Source of the DNA: Craspedostauros australis
Taxonomy: Eukaryota; Bacillariophyta; Bacillariophyceae; Mastogloiales; Achnanthaceae
Length of the DNA stretch: 64,000 bases
Direction of reading: 5' to 3'
Assembly: GCA_026770025.1 (NCBI GenBank)
Contig: JAMXDE010000029.1
Location: 62,001-126,000 of the forward strand
Shown piece by piece: positions 12,714-26,429 of the stretch. A program made the position numbers and the translations under genes. Numbering within the stretch: position 1 is the stretch's first letter; every line of letters starts with the position of its first letter. The notes below the pieces were generated by a model that was not told the origin of the DNA, made no database searches, and saw only the letters and a list, made by a program, of their open reading frames with translations.

Positions 12714-12949
12714 GAGCAGGAATTAATGCGACAGCAGTGGTGATGGGCGTACGATACGGCATTGTGCAAATGTCTTCCCTGGGTCGCACTCGGAGTAGGC
12801 GTCAGATGATTTCCCATGCGACCACGCCAGAGCATATCTTGCGGAGCAAACAGCGACGGGACACAAACAGCCACATTGGTTCGTCTGATGCATTGAACAA
12901 TCCAATCTAATCCATATTTCAACGCAACGGATACTTGTGTCATCTATGA
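12714..12949. other. 3' flank of the GlcNAc-transferase gene
   Basis: This short stretch lies between the stop codon at 12713 and the interspersed repeat. No feature is seen. Confidence 0.5.
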
Positions 12950-13084
12950 TACGACCCGGTTACTCTAGGAAGCGTGCATCTGAGCCGTAATGACTTTTAT
13001 GACCTATCTGAAACTTTGCACACAGATAGACCTATAGGTGGAGGGCTACTGTGTGAAATATTGCCCCCCCTACGAGCATTATTA
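12950..13084 (+). repeat. Interspersed repeat, uninterrupted copy (empty site for the 24.3-kb transposon)
   Basis: About 135 bp beginning TACGACCCGGTTACTCTAGG and ending CTACGAGCATTATTA recur in inverted orientation at 24174-25277. There the repeat is split at the CTAG (here 12965-12968) by a 967-bp element. The copies are nearly identical over the shared part, including a run of seven Cs here against seven Gs there. No coding capacity is visible. It could be a MITE or SINE-like element; its true ends cannot be fixed from two copies. Confidence 0.85.
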
Positions 13085-14050
13085 TAAAAGTTATAAGCAT
13101 CTAGGCTAACCTCTACACGCCGGCCGCGCCACAAGATACCCTCGCAGTGGCCCGTCTTAAATTATTTTAGAGTCGACTCCGATATCGCCCGTCAAGCCAA
13201 GGATGTTGTGGGTTTAGAAGACAACATGTGTCCAAACCTGGATGGCTTGGCTTTTGAACGTCGTACACATGGTCGGAAGACAGTCTCAGTCGACGTTCTC
13301 CAGACGTTTTCCACACACATCTTTCCAGATCCTCGTACCGCGGATAGACGTGGAATTGCCTTCTTCAATTTCCTGGGCTTCTCGATTTCGCTTCGATCGA
13401 AGTCATCGATGTTCGAATTCCTTCTTGTGGGAAAAGGATTCTTCATTTTCGTTTCGGCTTGTGGGTTGGCATGCTCTTTCTTCGGTTGTGCGGACGTTAA
13501 CAGTTGAGAATGTCCCATCTGTCCACAACTTTCGTCTCATGCTTCCTTAAATGAACTCTTGTCTTCCTGTGACAAATGCATACGTCGTTGACTTTGTTGC
13601 CAGAGAGGACGGGTGGCCTACCAAACGAACTGTGTGTCGAATTGATGGCTCTCGACCAGATCGATCAAGTGTCGAATTGGATTTTGGGAGGGTCTTCTTG
13701 TGTCTCTGGAGGTGGCTCTTGGGCTCCCGCTTGCAACACACAACACGTCTTGAGATGCCGAAATCATCAAGTCGTGCAGTTTGGAAGAGCCAGCCCACTG
13801 GCTGATGACAGATGTTCACACAGAGAAAGCAGACTTGTTCGCCGTCGTTCTTGTTGGGGTGGAAGCAAATGCGTTTTCGCAGTCATTTGGTCTCGTCGAT
13901 CTTTTGCTATTCCACACGCAAGCACGATGTCCAACGCACTGCAACGTTCATTGAGGACGAGCGCCCTGGTGGGCTGTATTCACAACAAAGGAGAGGCATC
14001 CAACGCCGCTATACGACTACCATCGAAGCACAGCATCAACGGAACATCCG
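13085..14050. other. Unannotated sequence before the repeat arrays
   Basis: Frames of 80-165 aa exist on both strands (for example minus 13192-13518 and plus 13576-14070), but none shows a domain, signal peptide or splice continuity that I can defend. Composition grades into the short tandem array near 14050. Confidence 0.45.
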
Positions 14051-14055
14051 AAAGT

Positions 14056-14400
14056 GACATCCGAGCATGACACCCTAACATGACATCATGGCATGGCATC
14101 GCAGAATGGCATCGACGCATGACATCACAGCATGGCATCATAGAATGGCAGATCATCACGGCATGGTATCGCACCACAAGATGGTATCACAACATGGCAT
14201 CACAAAATGGCACAACGGCATGGCGTCGCCGCACAGCGTCACGGCATGGCATCACAGCATGGCATCGCAGAATGCCATCGCAGCACAGCATCACAACATG
14301 GCGTCATGGCATGTCATCACAACATGGCATCAAGGCAGCGCATCACGGCATGGCGTCACGGCATGCCATCACAGCATGACATCACAGCATGCCATCACAG
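14056..14400 (+). repeat. Degenerate minisatellite with about 10-bp period (consensus near CATGGCATCA)
   Basis: About 345 bp consist almost entirely of variants of CATGGCATCA, CATCACGGCA and CATCACAGCA placed head to tail. The unit keeps a period near 10 with occasional slips. All reading frames through it are repeats of His, Met, Ala, Ser and Trp and are not credible proteins. Confidence 0.9.
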
Positions 14401-14639
14401 CTCTCTTATGTTGGATGATTGACAGACAGTGTGGGATACAATCCTCGCTGTTCAGTCATTTGACATGCAGTCAGATCGCCCTGCCCAATCTGAACCCAGC
14501 ACGCGATCGCACAACACACTTGAGCACACAGGGTGAGAGATGAAGGGATGATGGTGAATGTTGTCCTCGTCACCGAATGAGTCCACTGGCGTTCGAGCAC
14601 TCAACACAACATCAACAGAGCTCAGCACATGAAGCATGC

Positions 14640-17600
14640 TGTGAGAGATGCAGAGGGGCTGTTCGATGAAACCCCCATCGCGAAGTGGATCTGTTACCCA
14701 ACATCACGACGATCCTCAGCATGGCACAGCACATGCAAGCACATTTTCAGAGAGGGAGGCAAGGTGTGTGCAATGCCATCTCCAACACAGAACATCACAC
14801 ACCACAACAAGGCCAGAGATGGGTGGGCGCGGGCGAATGTGATCGTCACAGCAAGATGAATCCGTTGCGGTTTGATCACCCTGCACACACATGAACACAG
14901 CACATCCAACGTGAGCACATGGCGAGAGATAGAGGGGTGCTGTGATAGGCGATTCTCTCCTTGGAGCGAGAGAGTCTATCCTGAGTTTGGATCACGTTGC
15001 ATGCCATCAATGCAGACCAGCATAGGCCACTCCATGCAAACCAACCACACGTGACTACAAGGTCAGAGATGGATGGACGTTATTGCATATGATCACCGCA
15101 CAGCGACTGGAGATGCGGTTGGGTCACCCTACGCAGCACCAACATAGCACAGTTGGCACATCACATTTGAGCACACATGGTCGCGTGTGGAGAGGCGCTC
15201 TCTGATACAATCACAACTGCGAAGTGGATCACCCTGCATATGGATCACACTGAGCATGGATCACCCAGCACAGCCTGCCACAACACATGACATCAAGCAA
15301 AAGACTGAGAATGGGGGACACTGTTGGATGCGATCCGCGATGGGCAATGAATGAGTTCGTACAGAGGTCGCCACGCAGAGGCCACCATGCATATCACATC
15401 CAAGTACATGGTCGGATATGGAGAGGCACTCTCGGATGTCATCACAACTGCACAATGAAGGATCAACCTGTGCACCATCCATGCAGCCCATCACATGCGA
15501 GTACATCACTCGCGGAAACATCACAAACGAGCACATGGTCACAGAGGGATGGGCGATGTCGGATGCCACCTTCGCTGCAACGTAAATTCGCTGTGCTTGG
15601 ACCGCTCCGCGCACTGCCAACACATAATCAACATCCGCGAGCACATGTTCGAAGATACAGAGACGAGTTCGGATGTGATTGTTGCTGCAAAGTGAACCGC
15701 GCCACGGTTGGAGCACCCAGTGCGACACACTCAAACACATGGTGGGTGGTACATGGAGGGATGCTGCAAGCTGTTGATGTGATCCTCACTGCAAGGTGAA
15801 TCCAGTGTGAGTTGGATCACCCAGCGCGCACATCGAGACAGGTCACCACGCACAAGCATTGGGTCGGAGATGCAAGGGCGCTGTCAGATGTGATTGTCAC
15901 TGCAAAGTGAATGGCCTTGCGCATAGATCACTGTGCACACTGCCAAAAAATGCCATCACATGCGAGAATGCTAGGAACGAGCACATGTTTGGAGGCGGGT
16001 GGACACTGCCAGGTGCCATCTCCGCTGTGAAATGAATCTGCAACGGTTGAATCACCATATGCAACATCGACGCAGCACACCGCACACGAATGCAGGGTCA
16101 GAGACGGGTGAACGCTGTCCCATGCAATCCTTGCTGCAAAATTATTCATCTGCGGTTGGATCATCTGCGGTTGGATCACCTGACCCACCACCAGCACAAG
16201 CTGTCACGCGTCAACACATCACATGCGAGTGCCTGGGGAGAGATGGAGGGATGTTGTTGGATACAATCTCCATTGTGCTCCCATTATCAGACAGACACAC
16301 CAATGCGGCCAACATAGGCCAACATAGCATGCGCAAGCAGAAGACCAGAAATGGAGGGATGCTGTCAGATGTGGATATGATCCTCACTGCAGAGTGAATC
16401 TACTGTGCATGGATCATCTTGCGCACACACCAACACAGCCCACCACACGCCAGCATGTGGTCAATTGGATGGATGCGGTGGGAGGCCAACGCACTGCATA
16501 AGAAATCACTATGCGTTTGGATCACTTTGGACAACATCAACACGTGACGTCACACGCAAACCTTGTCACACACGAGCGCAGGGTCAGCGAAGGTGGGGTG
16601 CTATCAGATGTGATAATGACTGCAGAGTGATTCATTCTATGGTTGGATCACTTGGCACGCGCCAATACTGCAGATCATGCGGGGATGCTGAGTCAGAGAT
16701 AGATGGCCGCCATCGATGCCATCAAAACTGCAAAGTGGATCCGCTGCGGTTGAATTACCCTACGCGCCACACACCAACACAGCAGAATGCACACGAGCAG
16801 ATGGTGAGCCACGGAGAGCCGATGTCGGATGCGACCCTCCCTGCTCAGCGCCAGGCCATGCGGATTGCATCGCTGCAAGCAACATTGACACAGCACAGCA
16901 CACCACAAGCGAGCATATGGTGATAGATGGAGAGATGCCTGTTTGATTTGATCGTAATTGCGATGCGAATCACTGTGCACATGGATCGCCAGTGCGGCAT
17001 CTGCGCGGCACAACACGGCGGAGCATATGGTCAGAGAAGGAGAGACGCTGTCGGGCGTGATCCTCACTGCGAGGGGAATCGCTTCGCGGTTGGATCACTC
17101 CGCGGTTGGATCACTCCGCGGTTGGATCACTCCGCGGTTGGATCACTCCGCGGTTGAATCACCGGGCGCATCACAAGCGAGCACATGATGGGAAATAGAC
17201 AGACGCCGCCGGACGTGACCGTGACTGCAAAGTGAATCCGCGGTGCATGGGTCATCCTGAGCACGACCGGCACAGGCTGTTGTATGTGAATCCGTCACCC
17301 ACAAGTACAGCGCCAGAGATGGATAGATGCGGTGGGATGTGAATCTCATTGGGCAACGAAGTATCCTGCGTGCGGATCCTACCCACACAACCCCAACACA
17401 GCCAATCACACGCGATCCCATTACACGCGAGCAGATGGTGATAGAAAGAGAGGTGCTGCAGCCAGAGGTGGTTCTCATGACGAAGCGAATCTGCTGCGGT
17501 TGGATCCTCCAGCGCATCACACACCATCAAAGTACATCAGAGCACATCACAGCACATCAAGCACGCATATGGTGAAAGATGGAGACACATTGCCGGATGC
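14640..17600 (+). repeat. Degenerate tandem array, period about 105-120 bp, around 25 units
   Basis: A composite unit recurs in one orientation. It reads roughly CACTGCAAAGTGAATCC, then GCGGTTGGATCACC, then an A/C-rich stretch with CACAxCAxCACAGCxCATCAC, then GAGCACATGGT, then CAGAGATGGAGxGATGCTGTC, then GGATGTGATCCT. Anchors (AAGTGAATC or GGATCACC) occur near 14855, 15105, 15220, 15690, 15795, 15905, 16028, 16135, 16390, 16500, 16620, 16725, 16960, 17070, 17225 and 17480, mostly 100-130 bp apart. Units are diverged, so the array is old or evolves by drift as well as amplification. Frames inside are short and broken by stops. Confidence 0.85.
17085..17164 (+). repeat. Five-copy 16-bp tandem repeat nested inside the satellite array
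   Basis: The unit CGCGGTTGGATCACTC is repeated at 17085, 17101, 17117, 17133 and 17149. The first four are identical and the last ends GAATCACCG. It is a local amplification of the GCGGTTGGATCAC core of the larger unit, so it must be younger than the array around it. Confidence 0.95.
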
Positions 17601-18186
17601 CGATCAGGGCTCTTCAATGAATCGGCATGCGCTTGCGTCGATGGCAGCACATGGACACGATACGAGCACGATGGCACCATGCAGCACAGCAGGATGTCGC
17701 CCCAAAGCACGTCAACACAGTGCAATGGCACAGTGCATTCGTTGCTGAAACGTTGACCCATGTGAGCATCGCATGGTACCAAAGCTTAAGAGAAATAGAG
17801 CAGATGGAATCGTGTGGAGTGGCTGTGGATTCAAAAGGAGAAAATGGCACTGCGATAAACCCAGAAACGAAAATGTCATGGATGTTTTAGTGGCAGCACA
17901 GACGACACAAGGACAACACAGCGCTCATCGCCGTTGCGCGGCGCCTGGCACTCCGCACATCACAACGCAACGCATCACATTCACCCCCTTTCTCCACAAT
18001 CAATCCATTCGTCAAGCGAAAACACGAGAACAACAGCACCGCCGCTGCCACCACCGCCACCACCAACAACAACATCATCATCATTGACACGGCCAACCGT
18101 TCTCGCGTTGACTTGGTAGATAGGACTCTTCTCTCTCGGATGGTACGATACGAGTCGACAGTCCAAGCTGTGCCACGACAGCAGAA
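17600..18186. other. Flank between the satellite array and the TLDc pseudogene
   Basis: The sequence ends in a CAC/CAA-rich stretch (about 18035-18090) that reads as poly-His or Gln in several frames. No gene is supported. Confidence 0.5.
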
Positions 18187-21100
18187 GTGAACGCAGAAGT
18201 GGCATCAGCCACAGCGAAGACCACAGATGGTACCGTCGGAACTCCGGCTGCTGCGCAAGACAACAGCAACACCAACAATGGCACGAACGCTAACATGGAT
18301 AATGACATGGATAACGACGTGGACAACACAGAGGGAAACGCTGCAAACGACAGCATTCGCAAGAAGGAAAAACGAGGGGTGCTGGGATCATCGCGCAGGC
18401 GCGCCTCCTCTTTCGTTTACCTGACGTCCAAGGAGCATATCTTCTTGCAGGAACTTTTGATGCGTGGCATGGACAGCAAGATCGAACTGGTATGGGAGCA
18501 ACTGCATCAGGGGGAGCTCATGTCCATGTCATCCATTTCTCACGTTGCCACCGCCAAGTCAGCAGATGATCAACCAATTGGCGCAGATTCCACAAAAGCA
18601 GCCAATGGCATCAATCATGATGCTGACTCCACCGCTGCTACTACTACAACTGCTGCTACTTTGCAACTGCGACTTTGGCTGACGTGGAGTTGAAGGCAAA
18701 CACAAGGCCACCGCTGCCAAGACTCCCAAAGCCCATATCATTCGCGTCCAATGCAGATGGTATTCAAAACGGTGATGTGAGTGGCATGAATTCAAAAGGT
18801 TCCGTCCGCAAGAAGATGGGCAGGTTCACGTCAGTGGGATCTGCCTGTCGCAACCCGGTGCTGCAGCAACGACATCAGCAGCAACTGGATGGCAAGAACT
18901 CGCCGCACATGCTTCTGTGGAAGGCGCACGAGCAAGGGCTGGGGACTTTGGTCACGACGTCGAATGCGACGGGTGCGGGGACGCTGTTCGTTCCAGCCGA
19001 TGTGCCGCCACATCCCTGGCTGCAGTCGCAGGCACAAGCCAACCAAAGGGACAAATCGGCATCGACCAACCAATCGGCGTCAACCACAGCAACGCCTCCG
19101 ACCATCATCCAGCCATTCCCATCCATGCTCCTGATTCCGCAACGCCGACGAAACAGCAGCCACGGCAGCAACAGCAACAGCTTGAGCAGCTACTACAAGT
19201 CCGCCGCTGCGCCAGGAGCCAACAAGAGGCTGTCATTCTGTGGCAGTGTTCACAGCACCACCTCGGCCGCATCATCGTTGACCCCCGATGACATGCATCG
19301 CTTGCATGCTGCAGCGCACGCGATTTTCCGCAGCAAGGTGCAACGCAGATCGATCAGACTCTCTGCCTCCGCCACTCTGCAGCAGAGGTTGCAAATGCAG
19401 CAGCAAAAGCAACAACAACAACAACGCGACATCCCAGCTGCAAAACTCAGACGCAAATATCAGCGTTCCCAATCGCTGACCGTCGCTGCAGCATCCTTTG
19501 CAAACAAGCCAATGGCAGCATCGCGGCTATCGTCAATGCCCAAGAGATCGTCAATGTCAAAATCACAGTTTGGTGCCCTCGCATCTCAGCCAATGCCGCT
19601 GGCCCGACGTGGCAGGACGAAGTCAGTCACCTTCTCGGAGGGAACAAACGATGGTGCCATTCCGACGCCAACTCCAACCTTTCGCAGGCCGAAGCTTCTG
19701 ACTCGCAGACAGTCGGACACATTGGTCTACGCCTCGTCGTTGTCATTGCCAATCGACGATGCTCCTGTGCCAACGTCGCAACCAAGCACAGCTCGTCTTG
19801 CAAGAATTGCATCTGACGCAGAATCCATCGCATCCTTTGCCAGCATCTGCCCGGCCACCGCAATTCGAAGCGACTCATCCACGACGGTGGCGAGCATTGG
19901 CAATACGAGCATCCCACCGATCTAACCGGCAACAGCGCTGCGATCGCAATCGACAGCCACGGTCGATAGTTTCCCCCCAATCCCTCCAGTCAAGGCGATG
20001 CGCGGCAATCCGTCGCAACCGAGGCCAGCATCCCACCCACCCAACTCGCGACGGCCATCCAGTCCAAATCAACTGCCACCAACAACACGTTCCCGCCGCT
20101 CCCACCAGGCGTTGTGATGCGAGGCGAGTCAATTGCCACCAACGCGACGAATGCGACCATCCCATCCATTCGTCATGCGACAGCGTTGCGTTCCCAATCC
20201 ACCATCTCGACGGACAGCAACTTGCCTTGCTTCAGAATTCGGCACTGGCAACATCGCCACATGTTCAATCAACCGCGGCCACTGAGACATTCCCTCCCAT
20301 CCAACCCACAACGGCCATGCGGTCCGAATCGTCCACCGCCACTTTTCACGATGCAGCAGCACAGCAATCATCTGGAGTCGTCAACCAAGACGACATCCCA
20401 ATCACAGCTCCCACCACAACCACGCAGCTGTGCTTCCGCGATGCTGTCGTCACCATCCCACCGCCACCATCCGTCAACGCAGCAGAGATCCTGCGCGCGC
20501 AGTACGAGGCTTCGGATCAGGTGGCTATGGCATGGGCGACGGCCGGCAACATGTCGTCATTTGCAACTAGCACATCGCAATCGTCGCAAACCAGCAGTGC
20601 ACACGAGCAGGAGCAACAGAAACAAAATCTTCATCTTGATCATGTTCCTGCTACCATTCCGACTGTCCCAACTGCGGCCACAATGCCGAGCGCCGCATCG
20701 ACTGTCACAACCATCGAGTCTGCTGCAACGGCAGATTCTTCAATGAATGTCGACACCATGAGTCAAGCTTTGCCTTCGTCAACACCATCAGACGCCAAGA
20801 TGCCTTCCCTCACCACGGAAGAACATGATGCGCCAACGGGGGCATCCGACACGCCCACAGCCAAAGAAGAGCCCACCAACACCTGTCCTGTTGCGCCTGG
20901 CATCAAGAAACAATTACGACGGCGAGGGTGTGGAAGTCAGCGAAAGTCCGTCGAATATGTTGCAACAGCAGCAGCAGCATCAGGGTTCGTTGCAGGCAAC
21001 GGAAGATGCCACAGCACCTGGCCAAGACGACGATGGTCAAGATCAGCAGCAGGAACCAGTGGTGCTGGATTACACTGATGTGGATCACAGCGCCGCCGTC

Positions 21101-22560
21101 GAAAACGCTGGGTCAAGCGAAGGGGCCTATCATCACTGGCAGCAACAGCTGCAACAACGGGCGCAGCAACAACCTCCGCAGAGCATCATCTGGTTCTTGC
21201 GACTGTTGAGCCATGACAACACACCCATGGATCAGAGCCATGGCAACCTTTACCTGTCAACATCATTTGATGAATCGTCATGCTGCCACTACAAAGACAG
21301 TTTCCAAATCAAAACGCTTCGTTCGACCAAGATGCGCATGGTGACATCTTTCGCGTTTGTCGTGCCGTGTCGCACGATAACGATCAGCCGTTCATCCCAG
21401 AGATCATCGCCACAACGTCTGCACCAAATCTGGAGATGTCGAAATATTGCCCACATTATCCCTTGGATGCCTCCACTGTTGGCACGAAGCGCGATCCTGA
21501 AGCCCTCAGCCACTTTGATATGCAGCATGCCCACTACATGCATGCTGAGGACGGCCGCGGCAATGGCGATGCTGATGACAACAACGATGACGATGACTAC
21601 CAGGACTCTTGGGATACGTCATCGGTGCTAGACATCGAACGGTTCGACAGCTGGAACATCGTGAAGGACGATTACGCAAGCGGTTACGGAGGTGGTGGCA
21701 CGTTGGGATTTTCTATCCTTGGCACATCGGCAGGCGATGTGGCAGCGTCACCTCATGCCCCAAGCCCTCCGTTGATGGATTGGCTTCAAGGATTCTTTCC
21801 GTTTTGCAAAAACAAGAAAACTTCTACCTGAAGTACTGCCTCGTCCGCAATGGTGCATCCCTTGGGTCCTTCCTTCAGCATGCAAGAGGGGCTCAGTACA
21901 CAATGCTGGCGCTGGAGACGGTGGATGGCTAAGTGTTCAGCGCCTTCACCGGCCAGGCATGGCGCAAGACACGGAAGTACTTTGGCACGGGCGAATGCTT
22001 CCTGTGGCGGATGCGCAATCACCGCTTGACGCCGAAGAGCCGATCCGTTCTGAAGCAGGCGCAGCTGGAAAGCGAGATCGATGTCTTCCCGTGTGCCGGT
22101 GCCAACGACGGCATCCAGCTCCGCACGAACGATTGACTTGCGGTTGGATGGGGCACCCCTACCGATAGCACCGGCCCCATGCCAATTCCCACCATTCCAT
22201 CCTACTCCTCTGCTCACAACTTCTACGACGATGACGATGGCGGACAAGAAGCAGGCGAAAAGAAAGAGGAATATCCACACACAGCCACCAACTACACATC
22301 AACCCACCTGGACGCCATTGGTGGTCCAGCGACGGGTAGTAGTGGCCTCGACACCAACACCAACACCAGCAACGACGACAGTGATGACGCACAGAAACAA
22401 AGGCGACAGCCGAACCGGGAATTTGGTTTGGTCATCGAAGGAGATTGTCTGCTTCATGGAACCACACGTCCGTGTCTGACATTCAACAGCCCGTTGCTGT
22501 CGAAGATGCACAGCAACGGACCTAGTTCAAAATCGCCAATCTCGAACTCTGGACGTGAAC
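18187..22560 (+). pseudogene. TLDc-domain protein gene, decayed by frameshifts and stops
   Basis: Coding-like sequence continues for 4.4 kb but jumps frame repeatedly. Shifts are visible near 18660, 20010, 20230, 20905, 21290, 21800 and 22525, and in-frame stops at 19923-19925, 21930-21932 and 22134-22136. The C-terminal part is a TLDc domain: YCLVRNGASLGSFLQHARG, TMLALETVDG, then FSAFTGQAWRK, YFGTGECFLW, VFPCAGANDGIQL, FGLVIEGDCLL, RPCLTFNSPLLS and finally FKIANLELW. The TAA at 21930 falls where the family usually has an acidic residue after DG. The TGA at 22134 falls just before LAVG. The N-terminal part is low-complexity (poly-Gln, Asn, Ser) with a repeated ATAxRSxSTATxxxFPPI-like unit near 19.85-20.35 kb. 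TLDc proteins act in oxidative-stress protection and V-ATPase regulation; this copy can hardly make a full product. Residual assembly error is an alternative, but neighbouring genes are clean. Confidence 0.8.
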
Positions 22561-24173
22561 GCCGTGCGCTACAGAAGCAGAGGCTGAGAGACTGAGCTCT
22601 CGCGATCGATTCTGGAACGCCACGCAGCGTGGCCGTAGGCACGAGCTATTACAAGCAATGTGGACTACACTGCATCAAAAGTACTGGTGCACTGCTTCAG
22701 AGAGGTCCGCCAGGACGACCGGTCCGGATAGTGCCCCGCAGGTGCGGCTACGGGCGACATGACAACCCGTTCAGCGGATTCATCGTTGAGACTGTTAATA
22801 GCAGTATTTTGCCAAGCAATCCTGGGCACTCGCACAGTGCCAACAATACCAATCACTCAGATTCATAGCATACTTCCCTCTCAATAGCTAAGTATTGGTT
22901 TTCTTGTGGTTATACTCGTCGTTGTACTCCTCCTCCGCAACAGAGCGATGCTCCGGCAGTTCATGTGATGAACGTGATGCTCACTGTTTCGTGCCAACTC
23001 CCTCGTGTTTTTTAGAACGAAGATGGGAAACATCATACCTGTATAATACGAGTATGAGCAAGACCTAGGCACAGAATCCCACAAGGGGGATGGATTGGAC
23101 AGGCGTACTACTGCACCTCGCTCACTCGGCAAACTGATAGCATTCTCGAGCGCTATCGTCACACCATTCGTTATTGCGTTCAGGTTCGCGCAAGCGAGAC
23201 GCACCAAAACGGAGCCTCGAAGCGCATTGTTGGCATGGATTAGGTTGCAGGTGTGACGTCTGGCCACATGTCGGGCTGACGACCACAGCCAAACAAGTGA
23301 TTTAATTGGCTATTCTACGTTGGCAGCATTGTCCGATTGACATTGCTGACGTCACGGTGCGATGAACTCGACAAATTCAAACCGAGACATTGAATGCAAG
23401 CGTTATATTCGAAATAGATAGATACATCCGGCGACGCAGAGACATGTCAAAACCGGTATCAGACCGTAACCAAGCGAAACATTCAAACTGAACGAAATTC
23501 GAATCCTCACAAACAGCGAGCTTGTGGCAACCTTCGATATGAAATACTAGAAGTTATACCAAATACCATGAGCTGTTCCAACTCCAACACCAAGGGAGCA
23601 TTAAAGAACTTCAGGGTTGAAGTAATTGATGGCATCAAATAAGACAGGAACATGCCGAAAGTGGATAACTTGTCGAGGTCCGGCATGTGGTCGGTTTGCA
23701 GGTTCGACCACAGGAGGGTCAGAGACAGGGGGCTTTTGCTTGAGTTAGGACGACTAACCGCAGAGAGCAAGGTTGGTGAATACCATCTCAAGGGGTGCAT
23801 TGTATCCACTTCACTGCTGCAACAGGCCGCAGTGCCACTGACGCGAGTTTGCCCATGTCAAGCTGAAGGCATCATCCCGCCGAATCGTTGGAAGTTCAAA
23901 GATGACCCAAGGGTGTTCTGGAAGCCGGCAAGGCGAATGACACAAGTGTAGCTTCAGGTTTTGCAATTGTAGATGTGCGGACGAGATCCCCAAACACACC
24001 CCAATGACATCAATCCAACTAGTAGCTTCAGGCTTGTCTATTTCATGAAAATCCGACAATAGGCCCAATTTAGCCCCATATCGGGAAGCAAAATGGGTGT
24101 AAAAGTGCCGTCTGTCATGCGGTACGTCAATAGTCTTGGTATAGTCCAAAATTAAAAACTTAAATATCTACTC
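22561..24173. other. AT-richer, TE-like sequence without a supported gene
   Basis: Two minus-strand frames (23811-24149, 112 aa, and 23507-23809, 100 aa) lie end to end next to the interspersed repeat and could be remnants of one transposon frame. I recognise no domain in either. One copy of the TGTATAATAC motif lies at 23040. Confidence 0.45.
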
Positions 24174-25277
24174 TAATAATGCTCGTAGGGGGGGCAATAT
24201 TTCACACAGTAGCCCTCCACCTATAGTTCTACCTGTGTGCAAAGTTTCAGATAGGTCATAAAAGTCATTACGGCTCAGATGCACGCTTCCTAGTGCCTCA
24301 AAGAGCCGGACCCAAATGTTTGGCGATGTTTGGCGATGTTTGGCGATGATTGGCTACAGATTTTGGACCCATTTTTCCCAAACTCAGACTTAAAGTTATA
24401 GACACTCAATCGAATATCTCTTTGCATCTACCTAAACTTAAGACTCAGGGCTATCCAGGCAAGCAATAGCATTATCTTGTTGTTACTACTATCTAGTCGA
24501 TCTTTTTGTGTTTGTTGACCCCCTTGGTGTGGTTTTGCCTTCGGACGACGGACGGACCGGGTTTTGTTTGGCGATGTTTGGCTACAAGTAGAATTCTACA
24601 GGAGTCCGGTAGGATCTGGCCTCTTTTTTCGAGAAATTCGACTCGCCATCTTTGAAGTCTCCGGACTTAGCGGTCTTTGGCCCAATCTGCACAATAGATA
24701 TCATTTCAGAATCCTCTCTCCGAGTTGGTCACAACCATATGGTTTATATTGTGTTTGAGTGCGATGATATGGAGGTATGCTTGCGTTTAGTGCTCCCATG
24801 GAGGTCGGAACGATATTTGACCACTCGGATCCCCAATTTCGGCGGCAAGTTTGGAGAAGTCTGGTTCCAATGCTTGCGTCATCATGACGTCATCGATGGT
24901 TGGATCAGTTGTTTGGAACAACCAGAACAGGAAAACAAGCCAACCAGAAGCCAAAAACGTCCGTGAATGATGGGGGTGCTTGACAGATCACATCAGCGCT
25001 CACCGAGCAGGAGAGCAACAGACACCAAACTTTAGTATTGTATATATAAACGCCATATGATGCTACAATAGAAAGACGAGTACAGTAACACGCACACGAG
25101 CTAAGTCCGGAGAGTTTAACTTTGGTTGATGCTGTTTTTAGCCTTTTTTTGTTCGGGACTTACGTGAAAAATGTACTACATTCTACAGAGCAGTTTCTGT
25201 GATCCAAACATCGCCAAACATCGCCAATTTGTTTGGCTACAGCCAGCTCTTCGAGGCACTAGAGTAACCGGGTCATA
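24174..25277 (-). repeat. Interspersed repeat, second copy, inverted and split by a transposon
   Basis: Read on the minus strand, this copy matches the uninterrupted one at 12950-13084. It is interrupted after its first 20 bases: the repeat occupies 25277-25260 and resumes at 24292-24174. Everything between is the inserted element. Confidence 0.85.
24293..25259. mobile_element. Non-autonomous TIR element (967 bp) inserted in the interspersed repeat
   Basis: The left end reads GTGCCTCAAAGAGCCGG and the right end, reverse-complemented, GTGCCTCGAAGAGCTGG: 17-bp terminal inverted repeats with two mismatches. Comparison with the empty copy at 12.95 kb shows either a TA duplication (24291-24292 and 25260-25261) or, with ends one base further in, a CTAG duplication. 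Just inside both ends are inverted copies of TTTGGCGATG (three in tandem on the left, two on the right) next to TTGGCTACA, typical of transposase-binding subterminal repeats; another copy lies near 24567. Internal frames (for example 24652-24966) are short and carry no transposase motif, so it would need enzyme in trans. TA targets suggest Tc1/mariner or Harbinger-like ancestry; not decided. Confidence 0.88.
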
Positions 25278-26429
25278 CGAATAGCAGTCTGTGAAATGGA
25301 ACTGGAAAAGTGATGGAGACTCCCATCATTTCTGTGCGCCATCGTTGCATTTGGAGATTCAATGTTTTATAAATTCAGGCCATCCAACAACACAGCATGA
25401 CAACTTCACACCCGAAGAGATGGCCTGACTTGACTCCAGAGGACTTCCGTCAGCGCTTCGGACATGAGATGCTCGCCTTGATGGCAGCTGCGCTCATGCT
25501 GCGGCTATTACGCGATGGTCGCTGCTCCCATGGTGTTCTTTTGTTTCTCCCTCTCTCTGTCTCTCCGGAGAGAGGTGCGACCACCAAATTCTATCATTTC
25601 TTCGTCTGCGATCTGCGGAATCGAATCTCGGACTGGCCATCCGCGAACAGTGGGATCTTCTTGGATCCGGTTCCCACAACTGATCAGAACACAAGAACAA
25701 TTCTTGCCTGTCAAAATGTCAAATGAGAACAAAGATGGCGTCAGAACAAAACGCAGGCACGGAAGAACAAGAGAAGATCCGCAACACGGAAAGAAGCCGG
25801 AGTGACGCGTGGGCTATCATCTCTCGATCCGTGTCGGGAAGTACCAGCAACAGAGCCGAAGCTTTGGCGCCACGCGCAGAGGAGCTGAACACATCACAGC
25901 GTGTGCGTAACGTGCATGCACAATCGGCGGCACAGAAGATCACCGTGTTTGCAATTCCGCAGACTCCCGCACGCGCGTGTGTACGTACTCCACTGGATGC
26001 GGGATGTTCCTTGGATGATGTGTGCCATGGTCGTGTTCGGACATTCGTTGCACAGGACGAGTATGATGGAGGAGACCTGTTCTCTTGTATTTGCATTTGC
26101 ATTTGCATTTCTGTGGGAACTGCAGAACGGCATGAGCCGGACAAGAATAAATCTGTTGATGGGTTGATGGGGCATGCGACCAATGAACCACACAATCAGC
26201 GTAGGAGACCGACGTTTGGTGATGCACAGTCGCTCGCATTGTTCCGAGACTTGATGATTCTGACATCTGAACACGGTCAATGTTTTGTTTGGCAAACATG
26301 AGGCGTACTCCAATCCATAGGCAAGGCGGCTCGAACTGCAGACTGGCGACGATTGCTCTTCGATGATCACATAAAATCGAAAGCCCGTGCTTTATCATCA
26401 ATATCATCATCGTTCTCATCAGCATCACT
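25278..26429. other. Upstream region of the DUF6824 gene; no supported gene
   Basis: A 192-aa plus-strand frame (25723-26301) and overlapping minus-strand frames exist, but none has a recognisable domain and they overlap each other. A TTTGCA hexamer microsatellite lies at about 26088-26112. Confidence 0.45.

Follow-up and report, generated by a model that had tools for sequence, protein, structure and literature searches.

A MITE inserted at CTAG in a diatom genome and its probable derivation from a piggyBac-related transposon family

Results

A transposase-less element nested in a larger transposon

Within the 64-kb window analysed here (the whole stretch of Craspedostauros australis DNA, on contig C27), a non-autonomous, MITE-like transposon (the MITE below) lies inside one terminal repeat of a larger transposon (Table 1). 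The MITE has the termini TGCCTC...GAGGCA and stands between two copies of CTAG, in agreement with the original prediction of an insertion exactly at that site. A 967-bp element with 17-bp inverted ends had been proposed; the inverted ends are present, and the size is corrected to 965 bp with 16-bp repeats that differ at two positions. The outer G and C, which had been counted as element bases, both belong to the CTAG duplication, as is apparent from copies elsewhere that are flanked by CTAT, CTAC, CTTG, AGAG, CTGA or CTGG. The predicted subterminal TTTGGCGATG and TTGGCTACA blocks are present in the sequence, and the layout of the left end is the same as at the left end of an autonomous copy on C47, where two TTTGGCGATG-type units occur. 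No open reading frame of at least 150 aa lies inside the MITE, which is also shorter than the autonomous relative sharing its ends, as expected of the transposase-less element that had been inferred.

Table 1. Features of the MITE and of the transposon that contains it, in window coordinates.
Feature	Position	Strand	Basis
Non-autonomous transposon (MITE-like), subfamily A, 965 bp	24294..25258	+	sequence, genome copies, clustering
Left CTAG copy of the 4-bp target site duplication	24290..24293	.	sequence
Right CTAG copy of the 4-bp target site duplication	25259..25262	.	sequence
Left terminal inverted repeat, 16 bp, TGCCTCAAAGAGCCGG	24294..24309	+	sequence
Right terminal inverted repeat, 16 bp, 2 mismatches against the left	25243..25258	-	sequence
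Left subterminal repeats: three TTTGGCGATG-type units spaced 10 bp apart, followed by TTGGCTACAG	24319..24359	+	
Right subterminal repeats: two inverted TTTGGCGATG-type units and an adjoining direct-orientation TTGGCTACAG block	25204..25242	-	
5' part common to the MITE and autonomous element L081, 96.1% identity across the aligned first 600 bases	24294..24893	+	
3' part common to the MITE and L081, 91.3% identity across the last 300 bases (92.6% in local alignment)	24964..25258	+	
Large transposon entered by the MITE; inverted ends GACCCGGTTACTC..., ~130-bp terminal inverted repeats	12953..25274	.	
Target site duplication of the large transposon, ATAC	12949-12952 and 25275-25278		sequence
Left terminal inverted repeat of the large transposon (the 'unsplit copy' of the original prediction); CTAG at 12965-12968	12953..13084	+	
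Right terminal inverted repeat of the large transposon, interrupted by the MITE insertion	24164..25274	-	

The repeat split at CTAG had been described as an interspersed repeat. The split is real; what it divides is a single large transposon's right terminal inverted repeat. The inverted, unsplit copy at ~12.95 kb, which had been read as an empty site, does give the pre-insertion sequence; it is, however, the other end of the same transposon. A search with the terminal repeat found 14 places, 12 of which form six inverted pairs ~9 to 32 kb apart (on C27, the window's own, and on C43, C14, C3, C28 and C35), while the other two are single, at 77% and 88% identity. Its short distance (11 kb) and inverted orientation might suggest that the unsplit copy arose by excision or is an artefact of assembly, which would void the pre-insertion reading. 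We consider this scarcely credible, since the copy is the opposite terminal repeat of a transposon with matching ATAC duplications, and since the ten other copies, in the five remaining inverted pairs, run unsplit through CTAG at 96–99% identity. The pre-insertion reading therefore holds.

The large transposon (family loci L056–L068) is flanked by 4-bp duplications around TA: ATAC in the window, ATAA on C14, CTAA on C28, CTAT on C35 and TTAA on C3. Duplications agree in five of the six copies (ends read by eye, the window's rechecked) and disagree on C43 (CTAA versus TTAT). The C43 (L059) and C28 (L065) copies have identical left flanking sequence, which, together with the mismatch on C43, suggests recombination or segmental duplication. 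A 5.36-kb block with a long open reading frame is absent from the window copy and from L056 on C3, and inspection by eye showed no inverted repeats at the junction; judged from their sequences, these two copies look like non-autonomous deletion forms of one origin. The frame, 1,325 aa long, is open in the copies on C14, C28 and C43 and broken by an insert on C35. It contains the motifs DHKQKILP, SDNA.CFAS and EAQTGK, has no Pfam match, and yields a predicted structure with a mean pLDDT of 32. Its relatives in the genome lie at 41–44% identity in about 40 of the 52 matches listed (48 of 379 candidates scored), and none of 52 pattern matches in viral contigs was confirmed as a relative.

Several other features were observed in this family. 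The large transposon carries a TLDc-domain gene (E 7.8e-24 in L056, 5019–7949), and the homologous stretch of the window, at ~19.7–22.6 kb, is broken into several frames. Positions 14044–14427 of the window, also inside the large transposon, hold a degenerate array of ~30 units of 13 bp. On C35, a ~6-kb nested insertion (L064, ~0.57–6.6 kb) with ~95-bp inverted ends carries a divergent, 1,304-aa relative of the long open reading frame. In scale (~9–32 kb between repeats), extra genes and nested insertions the large transposon is like the giant gene-carrying transposons of Ectocarpus (KDZ, EnSpm and Sola-1), as these are described in PMC12477816; unlike them it duplicates four bases around TA.

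Genome copies and target site duplications of the MITE

The MITE is present in at least 42 copies in its own genome (74.8 Mb, 90 contigs), each aligned over at least 851 bases, and this number is a lower bound based on 40 scored candidates out of 143. It is thus not the single-copy sequence that would have counted against the original prediction. The other 41 copies, located in 39 loci, were all fetched. Both ends could be recognised in 39 of the 42 copies, and three were set aside for a missing or unrecognised end (L048, L055 and the second copy in L023). Clustering of 37 of these 39 (L019 and L023 left out) gave the window's group of 12 members (mean identity 97.5%), two related groups of five (97.3% and 98.0%), another group of 12 (98.6%) and three singletons. 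In one group, nine members are identical over 966 bp.

A perfect 4-bp duplication flanks 38 of the 39 MITEs (those of L019 and L023 read by eye), with a flank mismatch only in L054. The duplication is CTAG in 27 cases, and in the other 11 it is CTAT (2), CTAC (2), ATAG (2), GTAG, CTTG, AGAG, CTGA or CTGG (1 each). Chance does not explain these matches. When the right flanks of 40 elements were shuffled 1000 times, matching 4-bp pairs numbered 18.7 on average and 25 at most, whereas the real flanks gave 39. Among the 13 elements that lack CTAG on one or both sides, shuffling gave a mean of 1.7 and a maximum of 8, and the real flanks gave 12. A five-base flank match occurred in none of 40 elements. 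CTAG and TTAA are similarly rare in the 64-kb window (30 and 39 occurrences); CTAG was used by 29 and TTAA by none of 42 elements (the 39 MITEs and the longer elements L071, L072 and L073).

The nine byte-identical MITEs have CTAG (four times), ATAG (twice), CTGG, GTAG and CTAC as their duplications, amounting to five different tetranucleotides as written or four if strand is ignored. Because copies of identical sequence differ in this way, the variety arose at insertion and not by later mutation. In three places (L017, L019 and L023) two elements lie side by side with one common CTAG, as expected if one had entered the duplication of the other.

Copies had been predicted to be flanked by TA or CTAG, and the second of these is what was found in most duplications, whereas TA alone fails because four bases are duplicated. 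A Tc1/mariner-type MITE with a TA duplication, in which the surrounding C and G were part of the element or there by chance, would explain the central TA in 34 of the 38 perfect duplications. Against it, the duplication spans all four bases in 38 of 39 MITEs, among them those with the non-palindromic CTAT, CTAC, CTTG, AGAG, CTGA and CTGG; four of the 38 duplications have no TA; and PF13843 is the only Pfam family matched at E up to 0.1 by the transposase of the autonomous partner (below). In view of the non-TA and non-palindromic duplications we reject this reading as very improbable.

An autonomous partner with a PF13843 transposase

The end pattern of the MITE is paired at a distance of ~3.77 kb in at least eight places, among 100 of 145 places listed. 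Two such elements are L071 (3771 bp, 882-aa open reading frame) and L081 (3761 bp, 880-aa open reading frame, an autonomous element of type A), each with CTAG on both sides. L080, considered as a possible autonomous end, was dropped for lack of a recognisable end. In the four autonomous copies of this family (family 1) that were read at both ends, the duplications match, being CTAG in L071, L081 and the copy on C42, and CTGG in the copy at C1:2290353.

The transposases compared match PF13843 (DDE_Tnp_1_7, the piggyBac transposase domain) with 58.9 bits in L071, 56.5 in L072 and 60.8 in L081, against a cut-off of 22.4, and the match is nearly full length (profile positions 23–31 to 348–349 of 349). 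An autonomous relative sharing the ends had been expected to name the superfamily, and these 3.76–3.77-kb elements, with their piggyBac-type transposase, point to piggyBac; they also show that the MITE, suggested to be an undescribed family, has relatives. Searching the genome with the transposase protein returned 56 matches, 11 of which are stop-free copies at 83–100% identity that span query residues 1 to at least 863. The dN/dS ratio is 0.21 for L071/L081 (first ~860 codons) and 0.25 for L072/L073.

By motif, the predicted catalytic D-D-D triad lies in VMDES, GDSWFAS and N.VD.HN. These motifs were paired with DEMM, MDNLF and GVDKCDQ of family L082 (below), the third by eye, as MAFFT did not align it. 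D432, D537, D669 and the C-terminal cysteine pairs are invariant in all three transposases aligned, two of which are near-identical. The residue three past the third catalytic D is N in this transposase and D in the related families L082 and L100. A putative C-terminal Cys/His domain, with the order H..CxxC-CxxC-CC-CxxxH, was recognised in L081 and L072; the final CxxxH is missing in L071, whose C-terminus is altered relative to that of L081.

Other searches gave no further assignment. A phmmer search with a single transposase (E up to 0.1) retrieved no solved piggyBac structure, and a profile built from the transposase alignment hit only five P450 chains among solved structures, with E above 1. 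L071, L072 and L064 had no NCBIfam match above the curated cut-off. Of the pattern matches examined as possible relatives of the transposase, none was confirmed among 44 in viral contigs or 54 in bacterial and archaeal genomes.

The MITE as a deletion derivative in matched subfamilies

Between its two L081-like parts the MITE has a specific stretch that replaces ~2.9 kb, including the transposase open reading frame. Since the flanks match L081 and a short MITE-specific sequence stands in place of the coding region, the MITE is an internally deleted form. That middle sequence is common to the eight MITE representatives compared.

Three types of MITE ends could be distinguished: type A, that of the window, with GCGAT and GCTACA units in one layout; type B, with GTTACA units; and type C, with GCGAT and GCTACA units in another sequence context. 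The autonomous ends fetched were of type A (C47), type B (L071 and C8) and type C (C42), with C1:2290353 intermediate. Identities in the two shared parts were 96.1/91.3% between MITE A and autonomous A, 93–94/89–92% between two MITE B copies and autonomous B, and 88–89/83–84% between MITE A and the same two MITE B copies. As the middle is common to the MITEs and the flanks resemble those of their own autonomous type (types A and B), the MITE and its enzyme source appear, from these comparisons, to have diverged side by side. An alternative is that MITE ends were repeatedly converted by autonomous copies.

Other PF13843 families in the genome

A second family encodes transposases at 42–43% identity to those of family 1, and its elements have the ends TGCCTATCCGC...GCGGATAGGCA, again with TGCCT termini. 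Two whole-genome pattern searches gave 40 family-2 ends, 32 of which form 16 pairs ~3.9–4.1 kb apart; the eight that were unpaired at this distance were left out. Duplications are perfect in 12 of the 16 pairs (CTAG 4, CTAC/GTAG 7, CTAT 1), and in the remaining four the flanks differ at one position. Since family 2 has both features, TGCCT ends and a CTAG-like site are common to the two sides of a deep split. Outside these 16 pairs, two family-2 ends lie 32 kb apart at C29:377515 and C29:409971, both with CTTG, and are possibly one element swollen by insertions.

These duplications also bear on whether the elements could be ordinary TTAA piggyBac transposons whose target site duplications were mutated or misread. 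Divergent tetranucleotides are indeed reported for T. ni piggyBac, at 7% of junctions (543 of 7623; PMC12324416). Here, by contrast, TTAA is found in none of the 38 perfect MITE duplications and none of the 12 of family 2, the two sides of each agree with one another, and byte-identical copies have different duplications. An ordinary TTAA element thus seems highly implausible.

A third PF13843 family (L082–L099) has TATCCC...GGGATA ends and a GVDKCDQ-type motif. Nine copies were available with both ends (seven of the eight pairs sought, plus L082 and L083). The duplication was 6 bp in two of the nine, a five-of-six match in one and absent in six, and TTAA was not seen. This family had been tried as a TTAA control; with no TTAA and mostly no duplication it provides no clean control. 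Target behaviour within PF13843 may be broader still, or the ends of this family may not yet be understood. A further PF13843 family, L100, was observed with a GVDKCDQ-type motif and a partly resolved end.

Discussion

Taken together, the matching autonomous ends, the copy number, the 4-bp duplications at a relaxed site, the intact open reading frames, the PF13843 match, the D-D-D and Cys/His motifs and the low dN/dS support the idea that the insert is an internally deleted derivative of the 3.76–3.77-kb family and is mobilised in trans by a DDD transposase related to that of piggyBac, a reading to which we give a probability of about 0.86. Mobilisation in trans, the staggered cut, binding of the subterminal units and any seamless excision are steps that we infer. 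Full-length copies elsewhere in the genome would supply the transposase, which probably recognises the 16-bp terminal inverted repeat together with subterminal TTGGCGAT/TTGGCTACA/TTGGTTACA units. It would cut with a four-base stagger, the ends being joined to the target across four bases. Its preferred target would be CTAG, or more broadly N-TA-N in which at least one outer base is C or G, with CTTG, CTGG, CTGA and AGAG tolerated. In the window, the MITE entered a CTAG near the tip of the large transposon's right terminal repeat.

The four-base duplication fits the piggyBac path set out in PMC7351741, in which cleavage at the transposon end is followed by a hairpin across the four flanking bases, its opening to give a four-base overhang, and joining at positions four bases apart. 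In that account the choice of TTAA is ascribed to contacts of the unpaired tetranucleotide, including one between its first and last bases. If the analogy holds, the CTAG lineage must satisfy such contacts differently.

How the lineage is classified depends on the feature considered. PF13843 is given as the characteristic domain of piggyBac-like transposases (PMC8086355), and like T. ni piggyBac, piggyBat and PLE-wu the elements combine a PF13843 catalytic domain, a predicted D-D-D triad and a C-terminal Cys/His domain with a 4-bp duplication (38 of 39 MITEs, all four family-1 autonomous copies and 12 of 16 family-2 pairs), terminal and subterminal repeats and MITE derivatives. Unlike that superfamily, they duplicate CTAG or N-TA-N-like sites and never TTAA in the sets examined. 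A terminal repeat of 12–19 bp with a CC[C/T]T terminal motif is described as a piggyBac hallmark (PMC2872659); the 16-bp repeat found here falls within that length, whereas the ends read TGCCT. The Pfam score, at 56–61 bits, is modest. On the sequence evidence, the filing is with piggyBac by protein and outside it by TTAA and CC[C/T]T. We call this a piggyBac-related lineage, with an apparently piggyBac-like way of working, in which two hallmarks from the literature fail.

The same discrepancies, together with the absence of a PDB match, would also fit a distinct DDE superfamily that merely resembles piggyBac, its PF13843 match reflecting distant common ancestry. The match, however, covers nearly the full profile, the D-D-D motifs are in place, and the Cys/His order of L081 and L072 resembles the PiggyMac type given in PMC8086355; we consider a separate superfamily unlikely, though less so than the alternatives above.

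Of the systems compared, the nearest described behaviour to a relaxed, piggyBac-related enzyme is that of Paramecium PiggyMac (Pgm), a domesticated piggyBac transposase reported to make four-base staggered cuts centred on a TA that is the sole conserved part of the site (PMC3408717). Both systems involve four bases centred on TA, and the C-terminal Cys/His orders are similar (PMC8086355). Because the TTAA-type piggyBat and PLE-wu may share that order, according to the same source, it does not by itself establish a link with PiggyMac. Pgm is, moreover, a gene of the host with a role in IES excision, unlike the enzyme of a multiplying transposon whose sites are duplicated on insertion. An element of the diatoms P. 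tricornutum and T. pseudonana, termed 'weakly related to piggyBac' in PMC2806351, is likewise alga-borne and weakly piggyBac-like and, going by that description, could be kin of the CTAG lineage. No pairing of piggyBac with a CTAG duplication was found in the literature searched, with Repbase, the likeliest home of one, outside that search.

TTAA serves as a piggyBac hallmark by which MITEs are classified; the piggyBac transposase is also an enzyme used for genome engineering. We propose tentatively, at somewhat less than even odds, that this genome contains a piggyBac-related lineage, mobile and recently active and made up of two families at 42% protein identity, in which a relaxed, CTAG-centred four-base site replaces TTAA. 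If so, strict choice of TTAA would not be inherent to the piggyBac superfamily, the N-TA-N cutting of Paramecium PiggyMac could already exist in free-living transposons, and the three MITE types would have diverged in parallel with enzyme subfamilies by changes in their subterminal units. A CTAG/N-TA-N lineage would be mis-filed under TTAA rules. It would offer a natural contrast for finding the residues that set target choice and would give the PiggyMac enzymes of ciliates a mobile counterpart, and its matched MITE and autonomous subfamilies, with their different subterminal units, would make enzyme–DNA co-evolution directly testable.
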